Shown here: positions 4,969 through 41,577 of the stretch, one piece after another
How the letters are laid out: every line of letters begins with the position of its first letter
Position numbering within the stretch: position 1 is the first letter of the stretch
Origin: Methylococcales bacterium
GTDB taxonomy: Bacteria > Pseudomonadota > Gammaproteobacteria > Methylococcales > Methylomonadaceae
NCBI GenBank assembly: GCA_026399095.1
Contig: JAPLRP010000058.1
Span: forward strand, 1 to 51,512
Direction: 5' to 3'
DNA length: 51,512 nt
Position numbers and translations under genes: made by a program
Notes under the pieces: generated by a model
Seen by the model: only the letters and a program-made list of their open reading frames with translations
The model's database searches: none
Told to the model about the DNA's origin: nothing

Positions 4969-5773
4969 TTCGACACCTCTATTTATTAATTTTAATGTTT
5001 GACAACTAAAGTGGACTAGCTTTAAAACATTCAAATCAATATTAGGCTAGTTTATCGGATTTGATACTAATTTATTAGCTACAGATGTTTACATTTACCT
5101 GTTAATTATCGATATAATTTAAGGAAAATTCGATCTTTTATTGTCTGTTAATCAGAAATCTATCAATTACGAAGATTTGATAATAAAGGATGATTTGAAA
5201 TGCAAACTTACTAATAACTAAGTTTCGGTAAATTCTTGCCAATTCCAATGAATGATTAAGAATGTATTAATTTCTAAGAAATTTATGCAATAAATTTGCC
5301 AATTTATTTATATTATTTTTGTGATTGTTAATGCGCCATTACATAAATTCATACAAACCATTAATGCTGGGCTTAGTGTCGTTTATTTCTGTTGAACAAT
5401 CATTAATGTTAATTTTTAACATAAAAAATTGAAAACTCTAAAGCAACTATATGACTGAACCATCCTCCATAACTAGGTAGTGCATTACCTAAATAAGTAA
5501 TTCAAGCCCTATAAATTTAACATTTATTACTTACAAATACTCTGAGGCTTATTTATCAGTTAAAGGTTGGGCGATATAACAGTTAAACTGGTCTATAATC
5601 TTTAATATAGTCAATTGCGATTTTTATTAATTATCGCTATAAAGGTTTAGTTGTTGATTCTTAGTCTTAAAGGTATCCTAACGCTAACTTACAATCAGAG
5701 CTATATTTTTTACCACTCAGTTTAAATGGTAGTATAAAAATCGTGTAATTTTAAAGCAACGCTTGGTGTGTTC
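4969..5773. other. AT-rich divergent intergenic region
   Basis: About 800 bases between the minus-strand beta-helix gene and lapD. It must hold both promoters. I see no convincing gene. The only clear structure is a small inverted repeat, AAATTTAT/ATAAATTT, at 5279-5297. Confidence 0.6.
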
Positions 5774-13500: not shown

Positions 13501-15681
13501 TTATCGTAATTGACTTCCGGCTTCAATAATTTGCCCAAAACTGATACCGGCATCATTACCGGGAACTTGATTGGGTAAATAAACCTTGAAGCCTTCTGCT
13601 TGCAGTAAAGTGCTGACATACTCTGTCAATACCCGGTTTTGAAACACGCCACCGGTTAAACCTACCACTATAAAATCACGTTCAGCTCGAATTTGTTTAG
13701 CTTGTTTAACTAAAGCCATTGCCAAGCTGGCATGAAAACAACTACTTCGATCCGGTATGGTTAACTGCTTATTTTGTAGCATCGATATAAGCGGGCTCCA
13801 GTCACTTAACCATATACCATCGGCATTACAGTTTAAGGGTAAATTAATACTTTCCTGCGTTGGTTCACCACTGACTGCTTCCAGCCACATCGGGGCATGA
13901 CCTTCATAATCTGCTTGTTGTACCAATCCGGTTAATGCGGCAGCGGCATCAAATAAACGACCGACTGAACTGGATAAAGGGCTGTTGATTTTTTTTTCCC
14001 AAGCTTGCTTGAGTAAGCTGGTTTCGGTAGGGCATTCAGGCCATTCTTGAGCGTGTTCCCAGCATAAAGCCAAGGCACTGCGCCAAGGTTCACGTCCTGC
14101 TTTATCTCCACCAGGTAGCCGAAAAGATCGAAAAGAACTTACCCGTTGCCAGTTTCCAGGCATGCCAAATAAACCTTCGCCACCCCAAAGCGTGCCATCT
14201 TCACCAAAGCCGGTGCCATCCCAAGTAAAGATTAATGCCGGTTCATCTAAGGACTGTTCAGCGACTAAAGCAGACGCATGGGCATGATGATGAAATACTT
14301 TATGCACCAGTAAGCCGGAATTTTCTGCCCAACGAGTGGCGCTGTAATCTGGGTGGGCATCGCAAACACAGTGTTTTACGGCAATCCCATAAAGTCTGGT
14401 AAGATCAGCGATGGTTTGTTCAAAAACCTGTTGGCTTCTTGGAGAGCCCAGATCGGCGATATGGGGCGATATAACCACGCGCTGGCCCCAAGCCAGCGCG
14501 ATGGTGTTTTTCATTTGACCACCCACTGCCAAGAGCGGACTAGACAAGGTAAAAGACAGATTAAACTCTAGGGGAGCAACGCCACGACCTAAACGAATGG
14601 GTTGCGACTTACCGGCAATGACTCTGTAAACGCAGTCATCCACAGGCCTTAGAATCGGGCGGTTATGATGTAGAAAAGAATCAGCGATATGCCCTAAGCG
14701 AGCTTCAACCTGCTCAGGTTCGATTAATACCGGCTCACGGCTGATGTTGGCAGACGTTGCAATTAAAGGCGCTGCGTAATCTTGGAGTAATAAATGATGC
14801 AGAGGACTATAAGGTAACATAATCCCTAATTCGTGCATTCCAGGTGCAACAGCTTCAGTCAAATCAGTGCCGGGGCGTTTTTTTATCAGTACGATGGGTC
14901 GACTGGGATCAGTTAGTTGTGTCATTTCAGTTGCCGTAGCATAAGTATACCGTCGCACCTGACCAAGACCGTCAGTACCAAGCCATGGCAACATTACTGC
15001 CAAAGGTTTAAGGTCGCGATGTTTACGTTGACGTAGTTTTAATACGACAGCTTCGGAGGTGGCCGAACAGAGCAAGTGATAGCCCCCAATCCCCTTAACG
15101 GCAACAATTAAGCCCGCTTGCAACGCCGCGACAGTTGCTTTAAGGGCTGTTTCGTTGTCATTAATATCTGCACTGCCTGGTTGGCGAAAATAAAGCGTCG
15201 GGCCGCAAGTTGGGCATGCCAGTGGTTGTGCGTGAAAGCGTCGGTCTAGCGGATTTTTATAGTCTATAAGGCACTCAGGGCACAGCGGAAAAGCAGCCAT
15301 GCTGGTGTTGGGGCGATCATAAGGTAGTTGTTTAATTAAAGTATAACGGGGGCCACATTGCGTGCAGTTAATAAACGGATAACGGTAACGGCGCTGGGTT
15401 TTATCGTGCATTTCCGCCAAGCAGTCATCACAGATAAAATAATCAGGAGGAATATGCGCCTGACTGACATCACCGGCCTGGCTAGGCAGTATAGAAAAAG
15501 TGTCCAGTTTAACCGGACAAACTGATTGCGATAGCGTTTGATCAGGTTTGGCTAAAGGCGGGGCGTTACTTAGTAATTGTTGCTCAAACAGATCAAGATT
15601 TTTAATAGTACCTTGTGCCCATATTTCGACTTGTCCTGCATGGTTACGAACCCAACCTGATAAATGATGCTGATGAGCCAA
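13501..15681 (-). CDS. hypF: HypF carbamoyltransferase, 5' end out of frame
   Basis: HypF transfers the carbamoyl group from carbamoyl phosphate to HypE to make the cyanide ligands of [NiFe] hydrogenase. The open frame from a TTG at 15681 gives 726 residues with two zinc-finger motifs (CDDCLAEM...CTQCGPRY; CPECL...CPTCGP), a YrdC-like domain (about 175-370) and a Kae1-like domain (about 385-720; HHHAHASALVAE, FTWDGTGFGEDG, GLTGGVFQNR). The acylphosphatase domain is incomplete: its signature GRVQGVGFRPF is encoded just upstream in the same frame, but no ATG, GTG or TTG precedes it before a stop. A start at 15766 (TTG) would reach it if one base were removed from the T5 runs at 15730-15740 (A5 on the coding strand). 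This is a recent frameshift, an assembly error or slippage. Confidence 0.85.
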   Translation of the reverse strand: MAHQHHLSGWVRNHAGQVEIWAQGTIKNLDLFEQQLLSNAPPLAKPDQTLSQSVCPVKLDTFSILPSQAGDVSQAHIPPDYFICDDCLAEMHDKTQRRYRYPFINCTQCGPRYTLIKQLPYDRPNTSMAAFPLCPECLIDYKNPLDRRFHAQPLACPTCGPTLYFRQPGSADINDNETALKATVAALQAGLIVAVKGIGGYHLLCSATSEAVVLKLRQRKHRDLKPLAVMLPWLGTDGLGQVRRYTYATATEMTQLTDPSRPIVLIKKRPGTDLTEAVAPGMHELGIMLPYSPLHHLLLQDYAAPLIATSANISREPVLIEPEQVEARLGHIADSFLHHNRPILRPVDDCVYRVIAGKSQPIRLGRGVAPLEFNLSFTLSSPLLAVGGQMKNTIALAWGQRVVISPHIADLGSPRSQQVFEQTIADLTRLYGIAVKHCVCDAHPDYSATRWAENSGLLVHKVFHHHAHASALVAEQSLDEPALIFTWDGTGFGEDGTLWGGEGLFGMPGNWQRVSSFRSFRLPGGDKAGREPWRSALALCWEHAQEWPECPTETSLLKQAWEKKINSPLSSSVGRLFDAAAALTGLVQQADYEGHAPMWLEAVSGEPTQESINLPLNCNADGIWLSDWSPLISMLQNKQLTIPDRSSCFHASLAMALVKQAKQIRAERDFIVVGLTGGVFQNRVLTEYVSTLLQAEGFKVYLPNQVPGNDAGISFGQIIEAGSQLR

Positions 15682-15797
15682 ACGACTGACAAAAGGCCTA
15701 AAACCAACACCTTGTACTCTCCCCGTTACTTTTTATTTTTCTGGCTTGTGGGTTGTTGGTAGTCAATAGATAATTCCGTAATAATACTTTTTTAAAA

Positions 15798-15831
15798 ATC
15801 CCCCCTAGCCCCCCTTTGCCAAAGTGGGGAT
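15798..15831. repeat. GC-rich REP-like palindrome
   Basis: Between hypD and hypF, a double C-run (CCCCCCTAGCCCCCCTTTGCC) is followed by AAAGTGGGGAT, giving a stem with one mismatch. It shares the C-run / TTTG-loop / AAAG-run design of the hairpin at 12585-12610. It sits in the 175-base gap between two co-directional hyp genes and could reduce read-through into hypF. Confidence 0.65.
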
Positions 15832-15855
15832 AAGTTAACTCGTTAAAATAATGAT

Positions 15856-17016
15856 CTACGTTCTAGTTTTAACGCCTGAATGAGTTAATATGGTTGAGAC
15901 TGTAATTTTCCTATCATTCGTGGACAAACTGCTTTTAATCCCGGAAGCCCACCAGATTCGGCAAGCGCCTTCATCAGACACCATACAAGGGCCTATAGGA
16001 TTTCTAGGAACACAGGTTTCACCGTATAACCGGCATTCATTGGGTTTTATTTTGCCTAAAACAACCTTAGCACAATCACAACCGGGCGGCATTACACCGG
16101 CTTTTTTTCGGGCTTCTTCAGCATAAACAGGGAAACGATAGCGGGCATTATGTGCTGCGTATTTTTTGGATAATTCAAGACCGGATTGAGGAATAATGCC
16201 AATGCCACGCCAAGGCGCATCAATTACCTCAAATACGTCACTTAAAATCTTTTTAGCGATAAGATTACCGTCCGGCTTAACAACTTGGGTGTAACAATTA
16301 TCAAGAAACACCTTTTTTTCAATCAGCTGGCGCAATACCGAATAGGTGGCAGCAAGCAAACTTTCCGAGCTAAAGCCGGCAATTGCCGCTGGAATATGAT
16401 GTTGATCGACAACAAAACGCCACTCCTCAGCACCCATAATCGTCGCAACATGGCCAGGAGCAATAAGCGCATCAAAGGCGGGCGTGTCAGAGTCCAGAAG
16501 CATGGCAACGGCAGGCCAAGTTAAGCGACCGCTCATTAATAACAATAAATTATCAGGAATTCCCTTGGCAAGCATTGCAGCAACAGGCGCACAGGTAGTT
16601 TCAAAACCGGCGACAAAAAATACCACAGGTTTTTCAGGATTAGCGCTGGCGATTTTAACCGCTTCAGTTGGCGAGGCAATGGGCCAAATATCAGCACCCG
16701 CCGCCTTAGCTTGTTCCAACGTACGAATGGCAGCTTTAGGGACATTAACAGGAACGCGCAACATATCACCAAAGGCCAATAACACGATATCTTCATGAAT
16801 GGCGATTTGGATGGCTTGATAAATATCTTCTTCAGGACAGATACAAACCGGACAGCCCGGCCCCGGAATTAACTCAATAGAAGCGGGCAGGGCGGTGCGT
16901 AATCCCGCCAAGGAAATAGAACGTTCATGCCCGCCACAAACATTCATAATCCGCACTTTATCAGGTAGGGGGAGTTCGCGAATTTTTTCCAGTAATTGTT
17001 TTGCGGCAGTCGGCAT
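15856..17016 (-). CDS. hypD: HypD hydrogenase maturation Fe-S protein
   Basis: 386 residues. HypD works with HypC as the scaffold on which Fe(CN)2CO is built, using a 4Fe-4S cluster and a redox-active cysteine pair. Visible motifs: MNVCGGHERS (about 24-33), GPGCPVC (about 52-58), GFETT (about 133-137), and the C-terminal cluster region PPGCDCAKVVLGKI...NECRLYG, CVPRNPIGPCMVS, EGACR. Length and motif order are normal. Many HypD proteins have CGGHTH where this one has CGGHER. The start ATG lacks an obvious ribosome site. It follows hypB by 64 bases on the same strand. Confidence 0.95.
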   Translation of the reverse strand: MPTAAKQLLEKIRELPLPDKVRIMNVCGGHERSISLAGLRTALPASIELIPGPGCPVCICPEEDIYQAIQIAIHEDIVLLAFGDMLRVPVNVPKAAIRTLEQAKAAGADIWPIASPTEAVKIASANPEKPVVFFVAGFETTCAPVAAMLAKGIPDNLLLLMSGRLTWPAVAMLLDSDTPAFDALIAPGHVATIMGAEEWRFVVDQHHIPAAIAGFSSESLLAATYSVLRQLIEKKVFLDNCYTQVVKPDGNLIAKKILSDVFEVIDAPWRGIGIIPQSGLELSKKYAAHNARYRFPVYAEEARKKAGVMPPGCDCAKVVLGKIKPNECRLYGETCVPRNPIGPCMVSDEGACRIWWASGIKSSLSTNDRKITVSTILTHSGVKTRT

Positions 17017-17038
17017 AGTATTTATTGTTAAGTCTTGT

Positions 17039-17066
17039 TCACGAAAAACACGAAAGGCACGAAAAA
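17039..17066. repeat. Short CACGAAA repeat in the hypB-hypD gap
   Basis: Three near copies of CACGAAA(A) occur in a row between hypB and hypD. It resembles a short dispersed intergenic repeat seen in many bacteria. It has no clear secondary structure and its function is unknown. Confidence 0.5.
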
Positions 17067-17080
17067 ATCACCTTAAAGAA

Positions 17081-17947
17081 TTAAATAAGATGTTTTGAAT
17101 GCCCCTTGGTTTTATCACTAACCGGATAAAATTTTGTAGTGCCTGATTTGGCATGAAGTAATTGCCCAACCTGTTGAACTTTAGGGCGCTGTGTTTGTTT
17201 GTTTAGCAACAATGCTTGATAGGCTTTTATTTCATTCAATAACCAAGCTATCCATTCATCCATACCCTTGCCATCTTTTGAACTAAATTCAATAACGGGC
17301 GCGGTATTGGCAAGATTATGCAGGTTTTGTTTGGCATTACTTGGAGAAAAATCATCCAGATACGGTAACAAATCGGTTTTGCTGATTAACATCAAATCGG
17401 CTGCCCTAAACATAACAGGATACTTGGCGGGTTTATCATCGCCTTCGGTTACTGAGAGCAACACGACATTACGATGATGTCCCAAATCAAAACTGGCAGG
17501 ACACACCAGATTGCCAACATTTTCAATAAACAACAGGTCAAGATTGTCAAGCGCAAGATGATGCAAGGCATTGTGCACTAAATGCGCATCCAAATGACAA
17601 GCCGTGCCAGTGGTGATTTGATAAGCCGGAACACCTTGAGCTTGAATCCGTTTGGTATCATTTTCAGTTTCAAGATCGCCTTCTATAACCGCGATATGTA
17701 AAGAATCGCGCAGGCGTTTTATAGTCGCTTCCAAAAGCGCTGTTTTCCCAGAACCGGGTGACGACATTAAATTAATCACCAGCACTTTACTGGCATCAAA
17801 ATGCGCCCGATTATGGTCAGCTTGATTGTTATTTTGCGACAACAAGTTTTGGAGAACTGAAACTGTCGTCACGCCATTTCTGGGTTTTTCTGCCATAACC
17901 AGCGGGCGGTTGCCCGGTGTAATGTTACAACCACAAGTATTACACAT
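17081..17947 (-). CDS. hypB: HypB GTPase nickel-insertion protein
   Basis: 288 residues from the ATG at 17947; GGAG lies 7 bases upstream, and this start puts the conserved MCNTCGC nickel-binding motif at the very N-terminus. An in-frame TTG two codons earlier is less likely. The GTPase core has the P-loop SSPGSGKTALLE (about 63-74), the metal/switch region (VIEGDLETENDTKRI), the internal Cys-His metal site (GTACHLDAHLV, VGNLVCPASFDLG) and the NKxD-like SKTDLL. There is no His-rich stretch. HypB delivers nickel with HypA. The C-terminal tail of about 30 residues beyond the GTPase fold is basic. Confidence 0.95.
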   Translation of the reverse strand: MCNTCGCNITPGNRPLVMAEKPRNGVTTVSVLQNLLSQNNNQADHNRAHFDASKVLVINLMSSPGSGKTALLEATIKRLRDSLHIAVIEGDLETENDTKRIQAQGVPAYQITTGTACHLDAHLVHNALHHLALDNLDLLFIENVGNLVCPASFDLGHHRNVVLLSVTEGDDKPAKYPVMFRAADLMLISKTDLLPYLDDFSPSNAKQNLHNLANTAPVIEFSSKDGKGMDEWIAWLLNEIKAYQALLLNKQTQRPKVQQVGQLLHAKSGTTKFYPVSDKTKGHSKHLI

Positions 17948-17973
17948 GATCAAACTCCAATTGATGACAGCCG

Positions 17974-30291: not shown

Positions 30292-31767
30292 TTATTTACG
30301 GTTAAACAATGACACTAAATGTTTAAATCGACTTACTTGATCATTTGACAGTTGCTGCCACTGAAAGCGCCATTTCCAATTTCCTATAGTTGTGCCTGGC
30401 GTATTCATTCGAGCCTCGGAGCCTAGCTCAAGAATATCCTGCATGGGAATTATGGCAAGATTAGCAACTGACCCCAATGCCGCTTGAATTAACAAGCAAT
30501 GCAGTGAAGTTGAATGGTTACCAAGATAATCGTAAGCATAATTTCTTTCATATTCATTGATGCTGTTTGACCAGCCTATAGTCGTGTCGTTATCATGTGT
30601 ACCGGTATAAACAACACAGTTTCTCTCATAATGACTGGGTAGATAAGGGTTGTCAGGTCCGCTACCAAAAGCAAATTGAAGTATCTTCATGCCAGGTAAG
30701 TTGAATTCATCTCTTAAAGCATCAACTTCATCGGTTATGATGCCTAAGTCTTCAGCTACTAGAGGAATTGAACCTAGCTTAGCTTTTATAGCTTTTAATA
30801 AAGCACTTCCCGGTGCTTTAACCCATTCACCATTTTGTGCGGTAGGTTCATCTGCAGGAATTTCCCATGCTGCTTCCAAGCCACGAAAGTGATCAATCCG
30901 CAAAATATCGAATTGTTCAAGCTGGGTTATCATTCGATCTACCCACCAAGTAAAACCAGTTTTTGTTAGATAGTTCCAATCATAATGCGGATTTCCCCAG
31001 CGCTGACCGGTTTCTGAAAAATAATCAGGCGGTACACCAGCGACAACAGACATTTCACCAGATTCATTAAGCTTAAAAACCTTGCGATTGGCCCAGACAT
31101 CAGAACTGTCGTAGGATACAAAAATAGGAATGTCGCCAAATAAAAGTACTCCACGCACATTTGCATACGCTTTTAACGCCATCCATTGTCGGAAAAAGAT
31201 ATATTGTTCAAATTTAATTTCTTGTATTGCTTTTGAAAGGCGTTGTCGAGCTTCGTCAAGTGCGTTAATTTCCCTTTCTTTAAAAGGCTTGGGCCATTGA
31301 TTCCAGCATTGTTGATTAAATAGATTTCTAAGTGCCAGAAATAGGGCAAAATCATCCAGCCAAGAAGCTTTTTCCTGACAAAATTCTAAAAAATCATCTT
31401 TATCCTGTTGATTGGCATTTTCTAAGAATCCTTCAAAGACCTTTGCTACCAAACAGCTTTTGTTAAATGAAAAAGAACCGTTGCATTCCTCACATTGCTC
31501 CGATGTTGCCAGCCAATTACGCTTTACCAAATCATCAATGTCAATTAATGCAGGATTGCCGGCGTGAGCTGATAAACACTGATAAGGCGACCCATCTGCA
31601 TGGGTCATGCCTAAGGGTAATGTTTGCCATACAGTGATCCCAGTATCATGTAGGAAATTTACAAAATCATAAGCATCTTTACCCAGATTACCTTGTTTAT
31701 CAGTGCCAGGCAGTGAGGTAATATGAAGCAGAACGCCTGCTCGACGTTTATTTAAAAGGTTATTCAC
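30292..31767 (-). CDS. malQ: 4-alpha-glucanotransferase (amylomaltase)
   Basis: 491 residues from a GTG (31767) with AGAGGC 6 bases upstream. GH77 enzyme that transfers glucan chains between 1,4-linked glucans. Family motifs: RRAGVLLHITSLPG (about 8-21), SPYQCLSAHAGNPALI, GDIPIFVSYDSSDVW, GVPPDYFSETGQRWGNP, the catalytic loops LRIDHFRGLEAAWEIP (nucleophile Asp) and PLVAEDLGIIT (Glu), and the later YTGTHDNDTTIGW. Its start lies 14 bases after the stop of the decayed GH57 gene, so both were one unit with glgC. It shapes maltodextrins made during glycogen turnover. Confidence 0.96.
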   Translation of the reverse strand: MNNLLNKRRAGVLLHITSLPGTDKQGNLGKDAYDFVNFLHDTGITVWQTLPLGMTHADGSPYQCLSAHAGNPALIDIDDLVKRNWLATSEQCEECNGSFSFNKSCLVAKVFEGFLENANQQDKDDFLEFCQEKASWLDDFALFLALRNLFNQQCWNQWPKPFKEREINALDEARQRLSKAIQEIKFEQYIFFRQWMALKAYANVRGVLLFGDIPIFVSYDSSDVWANRKVFKLNESGEMSVVAGVPPDYFSETGQRWGNPHYDWNYLTKTGFTWWVDRMITQLEQFDILRIDHFRGLEAAWEIPADEPTAQNGEWVKAPGSALLKAIKAKLGSIPLVAEDLGIITDEVDALRDEFNLPGMKILQFAFGSGPDNPYLPSHYERNCVVYTGTHDNDTTIGWSNSINEYERNYAYDYLGNHSTSLHCLLIQAALGSVANLAIIPMQDILELGSEARMNTPGTTIGNWKWRFQWQQLSNDQVSRFKHLVSLFNRK

Positions 31768-31781
31768 GCGTATGCCTCTAG

Positions 31782-32760
31782 TTAATGTTCAATACCTGTT
31801 CGCATCGCTCCACCCATTGCCGGATATCCGGAACCATGAGTAAAACACAGCGCAAGATAAGCTGGAGGCTCTTCGCCTAATAATCGATACAAATTGGCTA
31901 AATTAAGCCAGAATTGCTTTTCAAAACTACTGACTGCTTCACCGGGATTATAATCCTCAAACCACCAAAACCAGTCAGACCCTTCACAGATGGCAAGCTG
32001 AAATTCAGTCTGCTGAATTTGTTTATCTGTTAACCGTTTAATTAGTATAGCAATATCGAAAGCATATTTTACGTCACCCAGCATGTCCCAGCCACGATTT
32101 TTGTCTCCGGATCCAATTCAGGTTGAAAAGGTGCCATATACTCAGCTTCCAGCAACTAATGTTGGTAATGATTTTATGACAGATTTGTTTTTTAAGTATG
32201 CAGAAAATGTACATAATTGAATTGTAGGATGATTAGCCAAACGATTGTATAAAGAACTCAGGAAATGATAGCCATTATCCGGAAAATATTCCTAAATATT
32301 TACACCATCCATGATAATGGAAACTATTTTGTCGCCGTGCTCAAGAACTGCAATATTTTCCAAATGTTGGATAAAATTACTAACTGCGTCATCGGCATGC
32401 CACTTTGAATATTCAAAACCAATACCATCATCACGAAAGAAACAGGTTATATTGGTATTTTCAGTTTGAAAGGGAGGTGTATACTAGATGCATCGTTGAT
32501 TTCATACAACTTTAAACTATTATAAAGGACGGAGCCACCGCTTGCTTTCCAATCAAAGCCAAAATCATTTAACAAGCTTAACGTTTTATTACTGATGCTG
32601 CCTTCTGAAAGCCAACAACCCTTGGGTTCTTCACCAAAAAACGTTTAAAAGTCTGGACACCTTTTTCAAGATGCCATTTTACTCGATCATATCCACCTGG
32701 ATAAGCTACCCTTTCCGGAAAAGCAGCATGTGCCAGCACAAGACTAATTTCAACTTTTTT
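31782..32760 (-). pseudogene. Decayed GH57 glycoside hydrolase
   Basis: The C-terminal frame is open from 32084 down to 31782 (QLAICEGSDWFWWFEDYNPG, ANLYRLLGE). The same frame continues upstream through three nonsense codons: TGA at 32118-32120 and at 32142-32144, TAG at 32292-32294. Around them it still reads RDDGIGFEYSKWHADDAVSN, VSIIMDGVNI(stop)EYFPDNGYHFLSSLYNRL and VAGS(stop)VYGTFST(stop)IGSGDKN, all GH57 landmarks, with Trp expected at each stop. A frameshift near 32476 and another near the T6 run around 32640 link to GCWLSEGS and AAFPERVAYPGGYDRVKWHL. The N-terminal part of the enzyme is missing. GH57 enzymes cleave or branch alpha-glucans; this copy cannot be functional. Confidence 0.88.
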
Positions 32761-32942: not shown

Positions 32943-34223
32943 TTACCTGACATAGTGCAATTTTTGCCCCAGCATATCAGGGGTAACTAAAACGACACCG
33001 CCTGCGCTGACATGAAATCTTTTTTCATCATCAGTCCTATTTTCCCCAATGATAGTTCCTTCGGGTATGTCACAACCTTTTTCTATAATTGCTTTGGTTA
33101 TACGGCAATGACGGGCAATATTTACTTGTGGCAAGACAATAGAATCCTTCACAGAAGAAAATGAATTAACTCGAACATTTGAAAACAATAATGAATGCCG
33201 TACCGTTGCTCCAGAAATTACACAGCCACCTGAAACCATTGAGTCAACTGCCAGTCCACGACGTTCATCATCATCAAAAACAAACTTGGCAGGTGGTGTT
33301 TGTTCTTGATTTGTCCATATAGGCCAGGTGTTGTCATATAAGTTTAAACCCGGATTTACTCCGATTAATTCCATATTGGCCACCCAGTAAGCATCAATTG
33401 TACCCACATCACGCCAGTAACTTTGTACGCCACTTTGTAAGTCTAAAAATGGATAGGCATTAACGATATATTTATCAATAACTGAGGGGATAATATCTTT
33501 TCCAAAATCGTTTGTTGAATTTTTATTATCAGCATCTTTAAGTAATTGTTCAAATAGAAAACCGGCATTAAAAATATAAATACCCATTGATGCCAAGGCA
33601 GTATCTGTTCGTCCGGGCATTACAGGTGGATGTTCAGGTTTTTCAACAAAGGCTTTGACGCGTCGATTGGTGTCGACATCCATCACACCAAAGGCTGTTG
33701 CTTCTTCTAATGATACTTCTAGACAACCAATGGTTAAATCGGCATTTTTTTGGATATGGTCTGCAAGCATTGCACCATAATCCATTTTGTAAATATGATC
33801 ACCCGCTAAAACTAAAATATGAGCAGGTTTGCGACTGCGGAGAATATCGATGTTTTGAAAGATAGCGTCAGCTGTACCTTTATACCAAGAATCTTCATTA
33901 TGTCTTTGTTGTGCTGGCATTAAATCAACATACTCACCAAATTCACCGCGCAAGAAGCCCCAGCCTTGCTGGATATGGCGAATAAGAGAATCTGATTTGT
34001 ATTGTGTCAGAATGCCGATTTTACGAATACCCGAATTAACACAGTTCGATAGTGGAAAATCAATAATTCGAAATTTTCCACCAAAGGGAACTGCCGGCTT
34101 TGCACGCCAGTCTGTCATGTTCATCAACCTTGAGCCACGACCACCAGCTAATATTAATGCAATTGTATTTCGGGTTAAATGACCTATATTGTGATCATTA
34201 TCATTATTGCTTGCCGCTGACAT
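32943..34223 (-). CDS. glgC: Glucose-1-phosphate adenylyltransferase
   Basis: 426 residues, with GGAGATG upstream of the ATG. Makes ADP-glucose, the committed step of glycogen synthesis. It has the nucleotide-binding N-terminus [20 protein letters not shown], the substrate site [40 protein letters not shown], the catalytic [13 protein letters not shown] and FVEKP, and a C-terminal left-handed beta-helix (about 300-426). The N-terminal [12 protein letters not shown] region lacks the longer regulatory arm of some enzymes. It diverges from glgB across 96 bases, so the two promoters lie back to back. Upstream of GH57 and malQ on the same strand, probably one operon. Confidence 0.97.
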
Positions 34224-34319: not shown

Positions 34320-36710
34320 GTGAAAAAGCGTTCTAATAACACACTTGACTCTGATGCTAAAAAAGCAATCTCAGTAAAACCGGAAGTAAATACGCCTGAC
34401 TCTGAAGCCACAAAAAATATCCCAAAAAAAACGGCTACGAGTAAACCTCAAGCCGGTTCCAAGAAAAGCGTAAAACCCAAAGCAGAAGTAACAGAAAAAG
34501 TTAAACCATTAATTGCTAAATCAGTAACAACATTAGCAGTAAAAAAACAAGAGGACAAGTTAGACACTGATTCACTAAGAATTAGTGAGGCAAAACATCA
34601 TGATCCTTTTTCAGTTTTGGGTCGACATCTCAAGAATAATCAAGTCTCTATAAAAGTTTTTTTGCCTTATGCAGAAACGGTTCAATTAAGTAATAACGGG
34701 TCTGAATTAAAGCGGATAACCGGTACCGATTTTTTTGAGTATTGTGCCAAAGATGGTGAGCTGCCAGAGCACTATAAAATTACCTGGGTTGACAAAAACG
34801 GTTATACCCATGAGGATTATGATCCTTATGACTTTGGAACCCAACTGCCTGAATTTGACCAGCATTTGTTCGGGGAAGGTAAGCATTGGCATGTTTATCA
34901 GAAATTGGGTGGACACTTACACAGTGTTGATGGCATTGATGGCGTTTTATTTACGCTATGGGCGCCTAATGCTGGACGAGTAAGTGTGGTTGGAGACTTC
35001 AATCGCTGGGATGGACGTTGCAACCCCATGCGTAGCTTGGGGGGAAGCGGGATTTGGGAAATCTTTATGCCGGGATTGAAAACAGGATGTTTATACAAGT
35101 TTGAAATTTTAAATCGTTATACCAATGAAATTTTATTAAAGACAGACCCTTATGGGCAGCAATTTGAGTTTCGTCCCAATACTTCGTCAATTGTTGTTAA
35201 GGAAAAAAGCTATATCTGGCAGGATAAACAATGGATGACTCAGCGAGTCAAACATGATTGGCTGCACGAGCCTATGTCTATCTATGAAGTCCATTTAGGC
35301 TCATGGCGACGGGATAGCTTGGGCAACTTCCTGTCCTACAGAACCCTCGCTATAGAGCTTGTAAACTATGTTAAGCAGATGGGCTTCACACACATAGAAT
35401 TGTTACCTATTACTGAGCATCCTTTCGATGGATCATGGGGTTACCAAACAACTGGCTATTTTGCGCCAACCAGTCGTCATGGCTCACCTGATGATTTTCG
35501 TTATTTTATTGATACCTGTCATCAGAATGGTATTGGTATTATTTTGGATTGGGTTCCAGCTCATTTCCCTAAAGATGCTTTTGCGCTTGCTCGTTTTGAT
35601 GGTAGTGCTCTTTATGAGCATGAAGACCCTAGAAAAGGCGAGCATCGTGATTGGGGCACACTTATTTATAACTATGGCCGTAATGAAGTTAAAAACTTCT
35701 TGCTGGCCAGTGCCAATTTTTGGTTGGAAGAATTCCATCTTGATGGCTTAAGAGTTGATGCAGTAGCTTCCATGCTTTATCTGGATTATTCTCGTGAAGA
35801 TAATGACTGGATACCTAATATTTACGGCGGTAATGAGAATTTAGAGGCGATTGATTTTTTCAGAGAACTTAATTCTGTCACCCATGATCTCCATCCAGGC
35901 ACTGTTATGATGGCTGAAGAATCCACGTCATGGCCTCAGGTAACTCGTCCAACATGGGCCGGTGGGTTGGGCTTTTCAATGAAATGGAATATGGGTTGGA
36001 TGCATGATGTGTTGGCATATATGAGTGAGGAACCTATTCATCGTAAGTATCATCATGACAGTCTTACTTTTGGAATGCTTTACGCATTTACTGAAAATTT
36101 TACATTGCCTTTTTCACATGATGAAGTTGTTCATGGTAAAGGATCATTACTGAGTAAAATGCCTGGTGATGAATGGCAACGCTTTGCTAATTTACGACTA
36201 CTCTATACTTTTATGTATACCTATCCAGGTAAAAAGTTGTTATTTATGGGCTGTGAATTTGGACAAGGTACTGAATGGAATGCCAACAAGGATCTGGATT
36301 GGTATGTGTTGGACTATCCTCACCACAAAGGTGTTTCTACTTTAGTAAAAGATCTTAATCATTTATATAAGACTCATCCTGCTTTGTTTGCTCATGATTT
36401 TGAACACCATGGTTTTGAATGGATTGATTGTCATGATGTTGAGCAGTCCATTATTAGTTATCGACGTAAAAACCAATTTGAAGAATTAATTATTGTATTA
36501 AACTTTACTCCAGTACCTCGAGAGAATTATCGACTAGGGGTTCCTGATGAAGGTACTTATACCGAGATCTTTAACTCTGATTCCAAGTATTATGATGGTA
36601 GTAATGTAGGAAATGCTGCTGTGATATCAGAGCCAGTCACCTGGATGAATCAACCTCATTCAATTAGTCTTAACTTGCCACCTTTAGGAGCCTTGATCTT
36701 AAAGTTATAA
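34320..36710 (+). CDS. glgB: Glycogen branching enzyme with Lys-rich N-terminal tail
   Basis: 796 residues from a GTG at 34320. GH13 enzyme that makes alpha-1,6 branches. Residues 1 to about 80 form an unusual low-complexity Lys/Ala/Thr/Pro tail ([30 protein letters not shown]), absent from the common 730-residue form. Then come an N1 module ([12 protein letters not shown]...), CBM48 ([20 protein letters not shown]) and the GH13 catalytic barrel with nucleophile Asp near 478 ([15 protein letters not shown]), acid Glu near 535 (MMAEEST) and Asp near 600 ([11 protein letters not shown]). A C-terminal beta-domain closes it. glgA follows about 100 bases later, so glgBA is one unit. Confidence 0.97.
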
Positions 36711-36811: not shown

Positions 36812-38245
36812 ATGAAAAAAATACTTTTTGTTACCAGTGAAGCACATCCCTTAATTAAAACGGGAGGTCTTGCCGATGTTTGTGGTAGTTTGCCAAAAGC
36901 ATTAGCTGAATTATCTCAAGATATAAAGCTGATTATTCCCAATTATCAAGCGTTAAAAACCAGTGAGAATGTGCGTTTTATGTGCGCTATACGCGTCGAT
37001 AACCGAAACATTAATATTCTTGAAACGCGCATGCCTGATAGCCATGTTATTGTTTGGCTGGTTGATTATCCGGCATACTATAATTATCCTGGCAATCCCT
37101 ACGTAGATGAGCAAGGTGATTCATGGCCGAATAATGCAGAACGGTTTGGGTTATTTTGCCGTATTGCGGTGGAAGCGGCTATGGATAGAATTAATCAAGA
37201 CTGGAAGCCAGATGTAGTCCATTGTAATGATTGGCAAAGCGGTTTGGTACCGGCTTTACTTTCACTTGAAAATGATCGGCCATCAACTCTATTCACTATA
37301 CATAATATGGCTTATCAGGGCCTGTTTCCAGCAACGGCGGCAGCAAAATTAAATATCCCCGGACAATTATGGCATCCTGCGGGGCTTGAATTTCATGATA
37401 TGTTGTCATTTATTAAGGGTGGTTTGGTATATGCTGATTACATTACTACCGTTAGTCCAACCTACGCACATGAAATACAAACGGCTGAATTTGGTTATGG
37501 TCTTGAAGGCCTGTTAGATCATCGAAAAGAGTTTTTAGGTGGCATCATTAATGGCATTGATCTAGATCAGTGGGATGCTGAAAATGATACCTTGATAGCC
37601 CAAACTTACTCAGTGTCAACGCTTGATAAAAAAGAACTGAATAAGGCTGCATTACAAGTCAAATTTGCACTGCCAGTTAATGATCAGGTGCCTATTTTGG
37701 GCTTGATTGGTCGACTGGTAGAACAAAAAGGGATAGATCTGATTTTAGAATGTCTGCCCGAGATGATGGAAATGGATATGCAATTTGTATTGCTGGGTAG
37801 TGGTGATAAGGACTTTGAAAAACAGCTTAAAAAGTTGGCACTACTTTATCCCGATAAAATTGCAATCACTATTGGCTATGATGAAGCATTGGCACACCTT
37901 ATTGAAGCGGGTGCTGATATTTTCTTGATGCCTTCGCGTTTTGAGCCGTGTGGCTTGAACCAAATGTACAGTCAACGCTATGGGACTATTCCCATTGTCA
38001 GAAAAACCGGGGGCTTGGCGGATACGGTTACTGATACATTGCCTGAAACATTAGCTAATCAAACGGCAAGTGGCGTAGTCTTTAGCGAAGCAAGTTCAAG
38101 TGCTTTGCTGGAAGCTATAAAACGCACCCTAATTTTATATAGCATGCCTGATTATTGGAAAAAAATGCAGATAAATGCCATGAAAAAAGATTTTTCCTGG
38201 CAGCGAAGTGCTGAGCAGTATTTGTCGTTATATGAAAATATTTAG
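36812..38245 (+). CDS. glgA: Glycogen synthase (ADP-glucose)
   Basis: 477 residues, GT5. Extends alpha-1,4 chains from ADP-glucose. It has the N-terminal acceptor motif KTGGLADVCGSLPKAL (about 18-33), DVVHCNDWQSGLVPALL, IHNMAYQG and a C-terminal nucleotide-sugar domain with GLIGRLVEQKGIDL, PSRFEPCGLNQMYSQRYGT (about 375-393) and the second KTGGLADTV. Full length and intact. The ribosome site is weak. It is followed after 142 bases by the CBM21-EEP gene in the same orientation. Confidence 0.97.
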   Translation: MKKILFVTSEAHPLIKTGGLADVCGSLPKALAELSQDIKLIIPNYQALKTSENVRFMCAIRVDNRNINILETRMPDSHVIVWLVDYPAYYNYPGNPYVDEQGDSWPNNAERFGLFCRIAVEAAMDRINQDWKPDVVHCNDWQSGLVPALLSLENDRPSTLFTIHNMAYQGLFPATAAAKLNIPGQLWHPAGLEFHDMLSFIKGGLVYADYITTVSPTYAHEIQTAEFGYGLEGLLDHRKEFLGGIINGIDLDQWDAENDTLIAQTYSVSTLDKKELNKAALQVKFALPVNDQVPILGLIGRLVEQKGIDLILECLPEMMEMDMQFVLLGSGDKDFEKQLKKLALLYPDKIAITIGYDEALAHLIEAGADIFLMPSRFEPCGLNQMYSQRYGTIPIVRKTGGLADTVTDTLPETLANQTASGVVFSEASSSALLEAIKRTLILYSMPDYWKKMQINAMKKDFSWQRSAEQYLSLYENI

Positions 38246-38387: not shown

Positions 38388-39896
38388 ATGAATGAAATTC
38401 AATTGCTGTATGTTGAAAATGTAATTTCAAGAAAAAAAAGAGTGCTTCAACAGACATTGTCTTTTTTTATGCGGGTTGAAAACCTGAGTCACGAAAAACA
38501 ATGCGAAGTGGTTTGGGCAGGAGAAGATGGAAACTGGTTTACTCTGCAAGCTTATTATCACAGCACTTTGGCGTCGAATAAAGAATATTGGCGTGCTCAA
38601 ATAACCGTTCTTGGCTCAATTGCTAAATCACTCCCTGGCAATATTATTTTTGCCCTGCGTTATCAAGCGCAGGGCAAAGAGTATTGGGATAATAATGAAG
38701 GACTTAATTATTCCAGTCATGCTGACTCCGGCATTCGGGTTATTACAAATCAAGCGATACAGAATATTGGTTTTGAGAGTCGAATGCTTGATGGACTGAA
38801 ACAACTTGTTGTTGTCGTGTCTGTAAACCACTCCATTCAACCCAAAGCAGTTACAATTCACTGGACCACAGATAATTGGCGACACACACATAAAACTTCT
38901 TGCCATTTTAAAAGAAATTATTGGGAGGAAGCCGCAGGAGGCAGTCACGCCAGAAATCCAAATCAATACGGCTCAACTATTTGGCAAGGAATACTCAAAA
39001 TAGATAGCCCTTTTAAAGTGCAATATACAATTTCCTGTGAATGTGAGGATCAGGTTTTTTGGGATAATAATCAGGACAATAATTATTGTCTGACTCATGA
39101 TCCGTTACGGATTTTAATTCTTAACTTACATTGTTATCAAGAAGATAATCAAGATTACAAATTCTCACAAATAGCTAAAGCTATTAACGATCAACAGGCA
39201 GATATTATCTGTCTTCAAGAAGTAGCCGAGCCATGGAATGACGGGCATGGCGACTGGAACAGCAATTCGGCAAAAATTATCAATGATCGACTTAATCAAC
39301 CCTTTTATCTCTATACTGACTGGTCGCATAAGGGTTTTGATAAGTACCGTGAAGGTGTTGCCATCCTGAGTCGATACCCAATTTTAAATCATTCATCAAA
39401 ATATGTTTCAACCAGCCATAGTCATGACAGTATTCATTCCAGAAAGGTTGTAATGGCTCAAGTTGATGTTCCCTGCATGGGCTTGATTAATGTTTATTCG
39501 GCGCATTTAAGTTGGTGGGATGATGGTTTTTCAGAGCAATTTAAACGATTAAGTAAATGGGCATCTGATAACCATACAAAAGATGTCAAGGGTACGCTTT
39601 TATGTGGTGATTTTAATATTACTGCCGGTTCAGAAGGGTATAACTTGGTTGTTAACGGTAACGAATATGACGATCAGTTTTTAGCAGCCAATTCTCAGTG
39701 TGTGTTTGAAAAAATATTTAAAGTAAATGATCATCATTGGAAAGATATGCTCGCTGATGATTATCGCATCGATTATATTTTCATGAACAAATCAAGCGAG
39801 CTACGCATCACTTTAGGTAATGTATTGTTTACCGATGAAGATTATGGTCGAGTCTCCGATCATTGTGGCTATCTTATGATATTTGAACCTAAATAA
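38388..39896 (+). CDS. Double-CBM21 / endonuclease-exonuclease-phosphatase fusion protein
   Basis: 502 residues, with GGAG 8 bases before the ATG. Two starch/glycogen-binding modules of CBM21 type come first: one at about 20-120 (FMRVENLSHEKQCEVVWAGE, then LPGNIIFALRYQ and YWDNNEGLNY) and one at about 135-240 (VTIHWTTDNWR, then VFWDNNQDNNY). Each ends with the (Y/F)WDNNxxxNY signature. An EEP-fold domain follows (about 245-500) with the metal Glu in ADIICLQEVAEPW, RKVVMAQVDV, YSAHLSWW, CGDFNITAGSEGY and the terminal DYRIDYIF...VSDHCGY. The EEP superfamily cleaves phosphodiester or phosphate bonds in nucleic acids, inositides or sphingomyelin. There is no signal peptide, so it should act in the cytoplasm on or near glycogen. 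The substrate is unknown. Domains are seen directly; function is inferred. Confidence 0.8.
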   Translation: MNEIQLLYVENVISRKKRVLQQTLSFFMRVENLSHEKQCEVVWAGEDGNWFTLQAYYHSTLASNKEYWRAQITVLGSIAKSLPGNIIFALRYQAQGKEYWDNNEGLNYSSHADSGIRVITNQAIQNIGFESRMLDGLKQLVVVVSVNHSIQPKAVTIHWTTDNWRHTHKTSCHFKRNYWEEAAGGSHARNPNQYGSTIWQGILKIDSPFKVQYTISCECEDQVFWDNNQDNNYCLTHDPLRILILNLHCYQEDNQDYKFSQIAKAINDQQADIICLQEVAEPWNDGHGDWNSNSAKIINDRLNQPFYLYTDWSHKGFDKYREGVAILSRYPILNHSSKYVSTSHSHDSIHSRKVVMAQVDVPCMGLINVYSAHLSWWDDGFSEQFKRLSKWASDNHTKDVKGTLLCGDFNITAGSEGYNLVVNGNEYDDQFLAANSQCVFEKIFKVNDHHWKDMLADDYRIDYIFMNKSSELRITLGNVLFTDEDYGRVSDHCGYLMIFEPK

Positions 39897-39981
39897 AGAT
39901 CTGGGGTTGTGTTGGTTGTAATCTGATATTTCCGAAGACACCCTCAACATCATTAAAACTTTACCAAGAAAAGGATATAAC

Positions 39982-41577
39982 ATGCCAATAGCAGAACACT
40001 ATGCAATGCCCATTCATGGGGATTTAGGCGGCTATTTTCAGAGAGTAAATGATTTTAATGAAAAATTTAATGTCCGTTGGGGAAAAATTGAGTTTGATGT
40101 GTTTTACGGTATCCAGGCAAATGTAAAAGTTATTATTAAGGTTTATCGCGATCACGGTTTATGTGAAACTTATATTGTTGACACTGATGCTTTTGATGTC
40201 CAATGGGATCGGCATAAGCGTAATACACGCGATTTTTACATCTTGCCCTTTTCAAATAATTTTGGTGCTATCAACTGTATTAAGATTTCTTATATCATTC
40301 ATCTAAATGATTGCTCTATACCTTCTCAAAATGAATACATTTTTATGGATAGGTATCAAGCACATGATGGTCATCAGCAGTACCGAAAGATTAACGGTGA
40401 TTGGTCAACGCCTAATAATTATCGAACTTATGAGCTCAATGCTGCTGAATTACAGACTGATGTCGATTGGTACAATCATCATTTTGAATCCTTAAACCTT
40501 ATTCCAAAGTTTACCAAAGGTCAGCAATACCATCCGTATCATCCCAAACGTTATCTTCATGACCATATAGATAAAGTGATTCGTAGTAAATGGGAAAATC
40601 CTGGTCGCTTGTCTACCATTAAAGTTAGTGTTGACTGTATTGACGATTCTGATTTTATTTCTCATTTGATTCATGCCAGTCATCAAGGTGTTTTGGTTCA
40701 GTGTGTTGTTGACTGGCGCAAGATGACGTTAACAAACAGTCATAATTACGCACGTTTAAAGCAAGCAAGAATTGAGTTAATCGGAGTCTTTTGCACGCCT
40801 CGGCATCACCTTATTGAGGTTGAACCGGATATGCATACTAAATTTGTAATATTTAATGATGAAGACTGCATACTGGGTTCGTTTAATATTACTTTTGATC
40901 GCTGGTGGGCGAATTGGGAGTCCGGGATGACCTTTCACTCGAAAGGTGTTTGTCGATTATTGGATAATATATTTCAGAGTCAACGCGGCGGGGTTAATCA
41001 AAAATATGGCATTGATCCCTTAAGTCATTTTAATTTGCTTTATACCTTTGGCAGGCAAATGATGTTAAATGGTAAGCCTTATCGTCCGCATCATGCTATT
41101 TTGGCTGAAATTCATCATGCACACCATTCAATTAAACTGAGTTTGTTTTTAATGGGTGATTTGCTGGGAGAGCATCATGATAGTGTTGTCGAGGCCTTGA
41201 TACATGCAAAAAACAGAGGGGTTTATGTACATGTTCTTTTTAACGGGCATTTGGCGAGGCAAGGTCGTATTGGCGTTCAAAGGTCAATGGTAGATGAGCT
41301 TAACCGGCCCTTATTACCTGCCGTGCAACGTCTAAAAGATGCCGGTATTTCAGTGGGATTGGTGTATGGACAAGATGATCACCCTGTGCCTTATTCGCCG
41401 ATTCATTCTAAATATTGTATTATTGATAACTCCATTGTTATGGAGGGCAGTTTTAATTGGTACAACACGTCGGTCTTTTCTCACGATCTGCTTGTTGTAG
41501 TCAATAATTATCATGTTGCTCAGCCTTATCTTTATGAATTTGATCAAATACAGAAATCTTTCAGGGTTTATTATTAA
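39982..41577 (+). CDS. Phospholipase-D-fold protein, two HKD motifs
   Basis: 531 residues, with AAGGAT before the ATG. Residues 1 to about 165 form a beta-rich domain I do not recognise (WGKIEFDVFYGIQANVKVII...). The rest holds two PLD half-sites: MHTKFVIFNDEDCILGSFN near 283 (Asn where the motif has Asp, so HxKx4N) and a canonical IHSKYCIIDNSIVMEGSFNW near 473 (HxKx4D). The superfamily includes cardiolipin synthases, nucleases and phospholipases, all using a phospho-His intermediate. No signal peptide or TM anchor is seen, which argues against a cardiolipin synthase. It follows the CBM21-EEP gene by 85 bases on the same strand, so the two phosphodiesterase-like enzymes are probably co-expressed behind glgBA. 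Substrate unknown. Confidence 0.8.
   Translation: MPIAEHYAMPIHGDLGGYFQRVNDFNEKFNVRWGKIEFDVFYGIQANVKVIIKVYRDHGLCETYIVDTDAFDVQWDRHKRNTRDFYILPFSNNFGAINCIKISYIIHLNDCSIPSQNEYIFMDRYQAHDGHQQYRKINGDWSTPNNYRTYELNAAELQTDVDWYNHHFESLNLIPKFTKGQQYHPYHPKRYLHDHIDKVIRSKWENPGRLSTIKVSVDCIDDSDFISHLIHASHQGVLVQCVVDWRKMTLTNSHNYARLKQARIELIGVFCTPRHHLIEVEPDMHTKFVIFNDEDCILGSFNITFDRWWANWESGMTFHSKGVCRLLDNIFQSQRGGVNQKYGIDPLSHFNLLYTFGRQMMLNGKPYRPHHAILAEIHHAHHSIKLSLFLMGDLLGEHHDSVVEALIHAKNRGVYVHVLFNGHLARQGRIGVQRSMVDELNRPLLPAVQRLKDAGISVGLVYGQDDHPVPYSPIHSKYCIIDNSIVMEGSFNWYNTSVFSHDLLVVVNNYHVAQPYLYEFDQIQKSFRVYY

Follow-up and report, generated by a model that had tools for sequence, protein, structure and literature searches.

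A candidate glycogen-targeted phosphatase with a PLD-fold partner near glycogen genes in a methanotroph family

Introduction

Why are an EEP-domain protein and a PLD-fold protein encoded directly behind the genes for glycogen branching and glycogen synthesis in a Methylococcales bacterium, and what might they do there? The window analyzed here, meaning the whole stretch of 51,512 nucleotides, carries the two genes in a glycogen island (Table 1). An earlier note on this DNA had proposed that both are phosphodiesterase-like enzymes held on glycogen, and it had offered several roles side by side: removal of phosphate or phosphodiester groups from glycogen, processing of a nucleotide or lipid, or defense by attack on nucleic acids.

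Table 1. Genes of the glycogen island and predicted domains of the EEP protein
Feature	Position	Strand	Basis or remark
malQ, 4-alpha-glucanotransferase (GH77)	30292..31767	-	outer part of glycogen island
glgC, ADP-glucose pyrophosphorylase	32943..34223	-	divergent; named by eye from translation
glgB, glycogen branching enzyme	34320..36710	+	named by eye from translation
glgA, glycogen synthase (GT5)	36812..38245	+	Pfam-confirmed; 142 bases upstream of EEP gene
CBM21-CBM21-EEP gene	38388..39896	+	502 aa; ORF list, Pfam, AlphaFold2 model
PLD-fold gene, double-HKD	39982..41577	+	531 aa; ORF list, Pfam, motif alignment
CBM21 module 1	residues ~10-110 of EEP protein		Pfam
CBM21 module 2	residues ~126-235 of EEP protein		Pfam
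EEP domain	residues ~240-500 of EEP protein		Pfam

Results

The locus

Open reading frame coordinates bear out the earlier description of a pair lying directly behind glgB and glgA on the same strand; the EEP and PLD genes, both on the + strand, are separated by 85 bases. By eye, the N-termini of both proteins are without a hydrophobic stretch, in agreement with the claim that neither has a signal peptide. The glgB of the window is 72–87% identical to the glgB genes that accompany the pair elsewhere, and glgC lies beside glgB in many of the relatives' loci. A promoter and terminator scan gave a signal no better than chance.

Two CBM21 modules fused to an EEP domain

The fused architecture that had been proposed holds in Pfam. 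Both N-terminal modules are CBM21 (PF03370; 38.9 and 46.5 bits, gathering cutoff 28.9), and the EEP domain (PF03372, Exo_endo_phos) scores 61.5 bits against a cutoff of 24.5. Weak CBM53/CBM25 matches were the only others that Pfam gave for this protein, with no dual-specificity phosphatase domain found. Among PDB entries, the CBM21 matches are PPP1R3B (E 1.3e-8) and PPP1R3C (E 8.3e-8), both glycogen-targeting subunits, and a W-D-N...N-Y motif that predicts binding is nearly invariant in both modules of the alignment.

In the EEP domain, residues N246, E278, H373, D408, N410, D462, D491, and H492 are invariant among 30 aligned sequences. They correspond to what we take to be the EEP catalytic motif (Asn, Glu, His, Asp-x-Asn, Asp, Ser-Asp-His), with residue roles carried over from EEP enzymes, and these catalytic-type residues are mostly common to control EEPs as well. 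The AlphaFold2 model of the protein has a mean pLDDT of 85.9 and a pTM of 0.82. The best PDB match of the EEP domain, in both fold and sequence, is 3teb. The phosphodiesterases nSMase (rank 3) and TDP2 (rank 5) precede BT3783 (rank 23; 4c1r, titled mannosyl-6-phosphatase), a solved sugar phosphatase with the EEP fold. Thus, the fold leaves the function of the EEP domain undecided. The protein scores below the cutoffs of the ExoIII models TIGR00195 (24.9 against 182.55 bits) and TIGR00633 (23.0 against 99.05 bits).

EEP relatives behind PTS genes

Plasmids carry EEP relatives about 27–33% identical to the window EEP. In all 8 annotated plasmid regions examined (a ninth is unannotated), a PTS gene immediately precedes the EEP gene, and seven of the PTS-linked regions hold GH65 (4) or an alpha-glucosidase (3). 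Their hosts are Bacillota, Fusobacteriota, and Pseudomonadota, several of them close kin. A gammaproteobacterium (G510) has the gene order malQ-phosphorylase-EEP-PTS, and a further genome (G681) looks similar by eye. MapP, a maltose 6′-phosphate phosphatase of Enterococcus faecalis, is described in PMC3737437 as a member of the EEP family whose gene follows malT.

A tree of 20 EEP domains has 13 of them on one side (8 CBM21-EEPs, 2 copies that stand alone, and 3 EEPs from plasmids) and the remaining 7 on the other, with support of 91/93, not starred. Two of the plasmid proteins are PTS-linked and one is unannotated, MapP itself being absent from the tree; the 7 controls are EEPs of the same bacterial family, labeled ExoIII-like or YbhP-like by eye. 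The controls and stand-alone copies were taken from 17 EEP rows retained, and outside the tree stand the proteins of loci L128–L132 and L134/L135 as well as L119, an EEP from the window's own genome that is highly divergent and looks secreted. Residues V279, E322, W376, V489, and G494 are common to the 13 grouped EEPs and absent from the 7 controls; 3teb and the PTS-linked L134/L135 proteins lack W376. By eye, the stand-alone copies have mixed gene surroundings, and an EEP relative in G426 has a secreted-looking N-terminus and seemingly unrelated neighbors.

With moderate support, then, the window EEP appears to group with EEPs of maltose/alpha-glucoside PTS operons. Judged from plasmid proteins in the position of MapP, it probably belongs to the same subgroup as MapP, a placement that is supported but not firm. 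The two share the EEP family and alpha-glucan or alpha-glucoside gene surroundings; unlike MapP, the window protein is fused to two CBM21 modules, and its gene is preceded by glgA and has no PTS gene. The comparison runs through PTS-linked relatives about 30% identical to the window EEP. A characterized relative is known for the EEP domain only, and it is linked by gene order and that identity. The earlier framing of two phosphodiesterases is probably wrong in its EEP half, whose relatives follow PTS genes in the position of MapP.

The PLD-fold partner

PLDc_2 matches the partner in two stretches at 116.8 bits (cutoff 27). An HxKx4[D/N]x6GSxN motif lies at residue 285 and another at residue 475, and each of the 26 aligned members has the two, which confirms the earlier identification of a double-HKD PLD-fold protein. 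Both His-Lys pairs are invariant in these 26 sequences. The canonical HKD motif has an Asp at the position where the first motif carries Asn.

The N-terminal ∼150 residues form an unclassified beta-rich domain, which matched no PDB sequence at E 10. A hidden CBM21 was tried and rejected here (hhalign probabilities of 0.54% and 0.20%; the two genuine CBM21 modules, compared with one another, give 93%). The structure model has a mean pLDDT of 56.6, with the first 14 ten-residue blocks at 74–89 save one at 66. Foldseek placed polyphosphate kinase first (E 3.5e-6, TM 0.26), with some alpha-amylases at E ∼1e-3, matches that carry little weight because the model is too poor. Against PDB sequences, the best match of the PLD profile was 4ggj, named mitochondrial cardiolipin hydrolase (Zucchini), at E 1.1e-4. 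The protein falls under the cutoffs of all NCBIfam families listed, including cardiolipin synthase TIGR04265 (22.2 against 290 bits) and DISARM DrmC NF038319 (39.6 against 133 bits). For polyphosphate kinase 1 it is below both cutoffs (PF13090, 23.0 against 25.8 bits; TIGR03705, 15 against 465.85); a weak PPK1-like stretch occurs in all 26 members scanned, the window protein being under the Pfam cutoff. Among 50,697 phage and 72,556 plasmid records, none gave a relative of the PLD protein at E 1e-5.

Co-occurrence and gene neighborhoods

The two genes, far from co-occurring rarely, are strongly associated: the methanotroph family is represented by 237 genomes, of which 155 carry both, 72 neither, and 10 one only. 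Within-genus shuffles gave a mean of 53 discordant genomes and a minimum of 36, which rules out chance or a local effect as the source of the pairing. Before this count, weak matches had been scored absent for PLD (G173, G229, G245, and G251) and for EEP (G033, G103, G193, G249, G251, and G252), and contig-end fragments, for example those of EEP in G027 and of PLD in G001 and G005, had been scored present. By comparison, glgA exceeds its cutoff in 218 of the 237 genomes, which points to probable glycogen synthesis in many genomes that lack the pair; in a single genome, G196, both genes of the pair occur and glgA gives no match.

A tabulation of neighbors was made over named loci whose counts are not independent, since L014 and L039 come from one MAG and the loci overlap the genome set (by coordinates, L019, L021, and L007 are G194, G199, and G088). 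Of the 37 loci, 10 have glgA and 19 a GH57 branching enzyme gene immediately 5′ of the EEP gene, 29 in all, and at least one glycogen-set gene lies near it in 34. Where the order can be read, the PLD gene comes next after the EEP gene in 30 of 33 loci; L028 comes from a genome with the EEP gene and no PLD match, its contig ending after EEP. Even in 10 genomes picked for nonadjacency of the two genes, the EEP gene still lies by a GH57 branching enzyme or DUF4912 gene in 9, whereas the separated PLD gene has a glycogen-set neighbor in 0 of 10 regions, as judged from the labeled ORFs.

A wide spread of either protein was considered and rejected. The PLD profile matched 1 of 321 class genomes at E ≤ 1e-20, this being the window's own; for EEP, 3 of 321 and 3 of 398 genomes matched, through the EEP part only outside the own genome.

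Discussion

We tentatively favor, at slightly less than an even chance, a reading in which the CBM21-EEP protein is a glycogen-bound phosphomonoesterase of the MapP type and the PLD protein targets the same material by way of phosphohistidine. The two CBM21 modules would hold the enzyme on the glycogen particle, where the EEP domain would dephosphorylate glucose units, most likely at C6, in glycogen itself or in released phospho-maltodextrins. This removal would keep branching, debranching, and phosphorolysis unblocked. Most simply, the PLD protein would open or move a glycogen phosphodiester, leaving a monoester that the EEP enzyme would then clear. We infer glycogen binding, phosphatase activity and its substrate, and the presence of phosphate on this glycogen; the PLD protein would probably form or cleave a phosphate linkage there, a step that, like the reaction and order proposed, is a guess. 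Of the functions offered earlier, glycogen dephosphorylation has the most support, given the PTS-operon relatives and the grouping in the tree. Weighing against the favored reading are the low identity to the MapP-type proteins and the modest branch support, the phosphodiesterases ranked above BT3783, the lack of W376 in some relatives, the EEP copies in other gene surroundings, the many glgA-bearing genomes that lack the pair, L028 with its EEP gene alone, the PLD genes away from the glycogen set, and a PLD N-terminal domain that is not CBM21.

According to PMC13011383, branching enzymes, a bacterial one among them, bind glucan with reduced affinity when it carries phosphate. The same paper allows that the branching enzymes of bacteria may perhaps encounter no such phosphate, and finds it "interesting to speculate" about phosphorylation of glycogen in organisms without laforin, bacteria being named. 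Our analysis suggests that the management of glycogen phosphate may extend to bacteria.

It is useful to contrast the pair with known systems. Laforin is described as a carbohydrate-binding module and a dual-specificity phosphatase, and the window protein resembles it and SEX4 in joining a glucan-binding module to a phosphatase-type domain. However, the phosphatase fold is unrelated, and the likeness is an analogy only. SEX4 is a eukaryotic glucan phosphatase, and the CBM families of laforin and SEX4 differ from CBM21. By this analogy, our best reading is of a glycogen-bound phosphatase that would work as they do, built from other parts. The PPP1R3 subunits, the closest solved relatives of the second module, share CBM21, which in animals carries protein phosphatase 1 to glycogen by protein–protein binding; in the window it is fused to the EEP domain rather than being a separate targeting subunit. 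3TEB, from Leptotrichia buccalis, most resembles the window EEP but is a 266-residue chain of the EEP domain alone, without W376. The PLD protein shares its two motifs with the two-HKD superfamily (cardiolipin synthase, PLD3/4, polyphosphate kinase 1) and differs by its own N-terminal domain and its scores below NCBIfam cutoffs. In the excerpted text of a review of prokaryotic alpha-glucan enzymes (PMC11046441), the disaccharide 6-phosphate phosphatases are HAD enzymes, and the terms CBM21, "phosphorylated glycogen," and "endonuclease" are absent. A literature search found no paper describing the CBM21-EEP architecture or the EEP–PLD pair, in line with the earlier statement that no such bacterial glycogen system was known.

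Other readings account for parts of this evidence. The pair could act at the granule on a small molecule, such as ADP-glucose, sucrose or trehalose phosphate, or a phospho-maltodextrin, and so set the rate of synthesis. The place of the EEP gene right behind glgA or a branching enzyme is consistent with this, as are the PTS-linked relatives, which lie beside genes for phosphorylated disaccharides and not polymers. We nevertheless consider it unlikely: two CBM21 modules would best fit a polymer-bound target, since a soluble phosphatase would need none, and we know of no EEP that splits nucleotide sugars. In a further reading, the PLD protein, with its weak PPK1-like stretch, would add phosphoryl or phosphodiester groups to glycogen through phosphohistidine, and the CBM21-EEP protein would remove them. 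Such an arrangement, which we judge quite unlikely, would be a convergent counterpart of glucan water dikinase and SEX4 in plants or of glycogen phosphate and laforin in mammals.

A lipid role would have an nSMase-like EEP and a phospholipase D- or cardiolipin synthase-like enzyme act on phospholipids or a lipid-linked glucan where glycogen meets the membrane. The PLD fold, the high rank of nSMase in the fold search with the EEP model, and the cardiolipin hydrolase match of the PLD profile all point this way; we assign it a rather low probability, as no membrane segment was seen by eye, the cardiolipin synthase model scores below its cutoff, and the EEP groups with proteins of alpha-glucoside operons. 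Could catalysis have been lost, leaving a scaffold or regulator that organizes the glycogen particle? The Asn of the first PLD motif would suit this, but the invariance of the EEP catalytic residues and of both PLD His-Lys pairs makes it very unlikely. Highly improbable, finally, are two nucleases stored on glycogen for defense or nucleic acid turnover. Nucleases do occur in both folds, and the PLD protein shows weak similarity to DrmC, MkoC, and NucT; these matches are of the general PLD-domain kind and below the cutoff where one exists, which led us to reject a defense system. The stable presence of the pair beside core glycogen genes across genera, together with the lack of PLD relatives in the phage and plasmid records searched, likewise disfavors the defense option of the earlier note.

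Many members of the methanotroph family encode a candidate glycogen-targeted phosphatase and, alongside it, a fixed partner. If the favored reading is true, the question of phosphate on bacterial glycogen would become directly testable in culturable methanotroph genera. It would also add a new fold to the glucan phosphatases and give a partner to a PLD-fold family for which we found no role. For the methane oxidizers themselves, the pair would provide an extra control point on carbon storage.

Results

The glycogen island of the window runs malQ (GH77), glgC, glgB, glgA, the protein 1 gene, the protein 2 gene, a tRNA and rimP-nusA-infB, the names of glgB, glgC, rimP, nusA and infB being assigned by eye. 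The earlier note placed a CBM21-EEP protein and, 85 bases later, a PLD-fold protein behind glgB-glgA; Pfam matches to CBM21, EEP and PLDc_2 bear out this observation, and the gap is as claimed. Of the broken GH57 gene in the island, three pieces match residues 245-563 of its relative, and a further 11-residue N-terminal piece is doubtful. The same gene is intact as a single open frame in three related loci (L003-L005), and L006 is without such a frame.

Features of the window and of loci opened around relatives
Sequence	Positions	Strand	Feature
Window	2107-5034	-	975-aa protein; purple acid phosphatase N-terminal, DUF7402 and F5/8 type C domains; weak beta-helix match
Window	13501-17953	-	Hydrogenase maturation genes: HypF, HypD, HypB/CobW-type gene
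Window	31785-32759	-	Remains of broken GH57 gene, between malQ and glgC
Window	38388-39896		Protein 1 gene; two CBM21 modules above Pfam cut-off, Exo_endo_phos (EEP) domain
Window	39982-41577		Protein 2 gene; two PLDc_2 stretches, two HxKx4[D/N]x6GSxN motifs
L013	5376-7627		Example of DUF4912 and GH57 branching-enzyme unit
L078 (genome G013)	601-1275		224-aa protein similar to just the CBM21 part; no EEP domain
L134 (gammaproteobacterium)	6436-7224		malQ, phosphorylase, EEP and PTS genes in one row
L135 (gammaproteobacterium)	5915-6706		malQ, phosphorylase, EEP and PTS genes in one row

The AlphaFold2 model of protein 1 is good (pLDDT 85.9, pTM 0.82), and its best solved match is 3teb, a function-unassigned EEP protein of Leptotrichia buccalis. 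Among solved structures, the second CBM21 module comes closest to PPP1R3B and PPP1R3C; matches of the first module are the glucoamylase starch-binding domain and PPP1R3A. Both modules keep a W-D-N...N-Y motif almost without variation. Animal PPP1R3 subunits carry protein phosphatase 1 to glycogen. CBM21 was absent from the 14 well-known control genomes searched. The first 150 residues of protein 2 form a beta-rich domain with no consistent Pfam match and no PDB match, and the model beyond them is poor. A weak PPK1-like stretch, below the Pfam cut-off in the window protein, was seen in 26 of 26 members at E<=1.

Scanning one genome per species located relatives of protein 1 at 37 loci. By record title, 36 belong to Methylococcales or to a genus that we assign to that order, and one is from a SAR324 MAG (L038). 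With neighbour families assigned by Pfam on representatives, the gene directly upstream of the EEP gene is glgA (10 loci) or a GH57 branching enzyme (19) in 29 of the 37; ahead of the GH57 gene there is usually a DUF4912 gene. At least one glycogen-set gene is present at 34 loci, the exceptions being L026, L028 and L038. Upstream of the CBM21-EEP gene, a DUF4912 gene (21/37) and a GH57 branching enzyme (22/37) make up a conserved unit, and DUF4912 may be a glycogen-associated domain.

Four loci stop at a contig edge; at 30 of the 33 others the PLD gene comes next after the EEP gene, although two of these have a short ORF, probably spurious, in the gap. The exceptions are L019 and L021, whose genomes hold the PLD gene elsewhere, and L038. 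No PLD match was found anywhere in the genome of L028, a contig-edge locus. In L038 the PLD gene starts 7.6 kb downstream, beyond tetratricopeptide-like and other genes (by eye), and the genome has glgA over the cut-off; the locus may have crossed between phyla, or its contig may be misbinned. At five loci (L004, L005, L024, L032, L034), the PLD gene is followed by an AXE1 (acetyl-xylan-esterase-like) gene and another esterase gene; one thought is an acyl group on glycogen.

Across 237 genomes of the methanotroph family, each profile matched 165. Once weak matches were set aside, PLD was present in 161 and EEP in 159, with both in 155, neither in 72 and one only in 10. Shuffling EEP presence within genera (10,000 trials) gave a mean of 53 discordant genomes and a minimum of 36. 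Adjacency accounts for part of this co-occurrence, because a lost contig removes both genes. Ten genomes chosen for non-adjacent genes still keep both; in these, EEP lies beside a GH57 branching enzyme in nine, and the PLD neighbours are varied, none from the glycogen set, in all ten. The pairing that the earlier note described is real, and the two genes commonly occur together. The EEP protein was absent from all 24 genomes of the order's other families, and the PLD protein, at E<=1e-20, from all 320 other genomes sampled across the class, one of them a same-family genome from a genus without the pair.

Outside the family, 68 plasmid records matched protein 1, none covering more than 80% of the query; in the rows inspected, matches begin at residue 234-240, the EEP part. 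Nine plasmid regions were opened, one without annotation; in all eight annotated regions a PTS gene stands immediately before the EEP gene. Four of these regions also have a GH65 gene, three have an alpha-glucosidase gene, and the last has neither but carries a beta-phosphoglucomutase gene. They come from hosts in Bacillota, Fusobacteriota and Pseudomonadota, the four GH65 cases being close kin of one another, as are the Enterobacter/Leclercia cases. The gammaproteobacterium G510 has, by Pfam, GH77 malQ, a carbohydrate phosphorylase, EEP and PTS IIBC in order; G681, of the same family, looks similar by eye, with one long frame replacing malQ and phosphorylase. The malQ-phosphorylase-EEP-PTS rows at L134 and L135 are likely a MapP-type operon outside Bacillota. 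The relative in G426 adjoins genes that look unrelated, and stand-alone EEP copies have mixed surroundings. One such copy (L098, genome G192; 280 aa, 37% identical) lies directly beside a CBM21-EEP gene.

A tree of 20 EEP domains placed 13 on one side: eight CBM21-EEPs, two stand-alone copies that occur in some of the methanotrophs, and three plasmid EEPs, of which two are PTS-linked and one is unannotated. On the other side were seven controls, labelled ExoIII-like and YbhP-like by eye and taken from the genome of the window and from related ones; support was 91/93, below the program's star. V279, E322, W376, V489 and G494 are common to those 13 and absent from the controls; W376 is not kept in the PTS-linked proteins of L134 and L135 nor in 3teb. 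The window EEP is 27-40% identical to these relatives and 59% to the SAR324 copy.

Discussion

The earlier note proposed that the pair may be phosphodiesterase-like enzymes held on glycogen. That interpretation is partly supported and can be sharpened: the CBM21 likeness and the EEP relatives in alpha-glucoside operons, combined, make a glycogen-held phosphatase the best reading of protein 1. Its active site would be the one found in enzymes that take the 6-phosphate off alpha-glucosides. A Streptococcus mutans paper credits Mokhtari et al. with MapP, the maltose 6'-phosphate phosphatase of Enterococcus faecalis, whose gene lies downstream of malT, a maltose PTS gene, and which had earlier been proposed as an EEP protein of unknown function (PMC3737437). 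Identifying the plasmid EEP proteins with MapP rests on gene order. Fold comparison does not tell phosphatase from phosphodiesterase here: BT3783, a solved EEP protein that bears the title mannosyl-6-phosphatase, comes after neutral sphingomyelinase and TDP2 in the ranking.

Protein 2 carries the residues that a phosphohistidine mechanism needs; since it is also co-retained with protein 1, its target is probably the same phosphate chemistry. It might cut a phosphodiester, move a group onto glycogen or do something else; since the weak PPK1-like stretch recurs in all 26 members, we keep the transferase reading open.

A glycogen-held phosphatase would resemble laforin and SEX4 in logic though not in its parts. 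Neither EEP nor CBM21 is new as a domain; in open-access full-text literature we found no description of the CBM21-EEP fusion as a probable bacterial glucan phosphatase, nor of its fixed PLD partner. In one account, glucan phosphate lowers branching-enzyme affinity, one bacterial enzyme included, which would explain the place of the EEP gene beside branching enzymes; the same account leaves bacterial glycogen phosphorylation open, and bacteria perhaps have none (PMC13011383). Within the family, glgA is over the cut-off in 218 of 237 genomes, more than carry the pair, and one genome (G196) has the pair with no glgA match. The pair is thus an accessory of glycogen metabolism in these methanotrophs, not a requirement for it.
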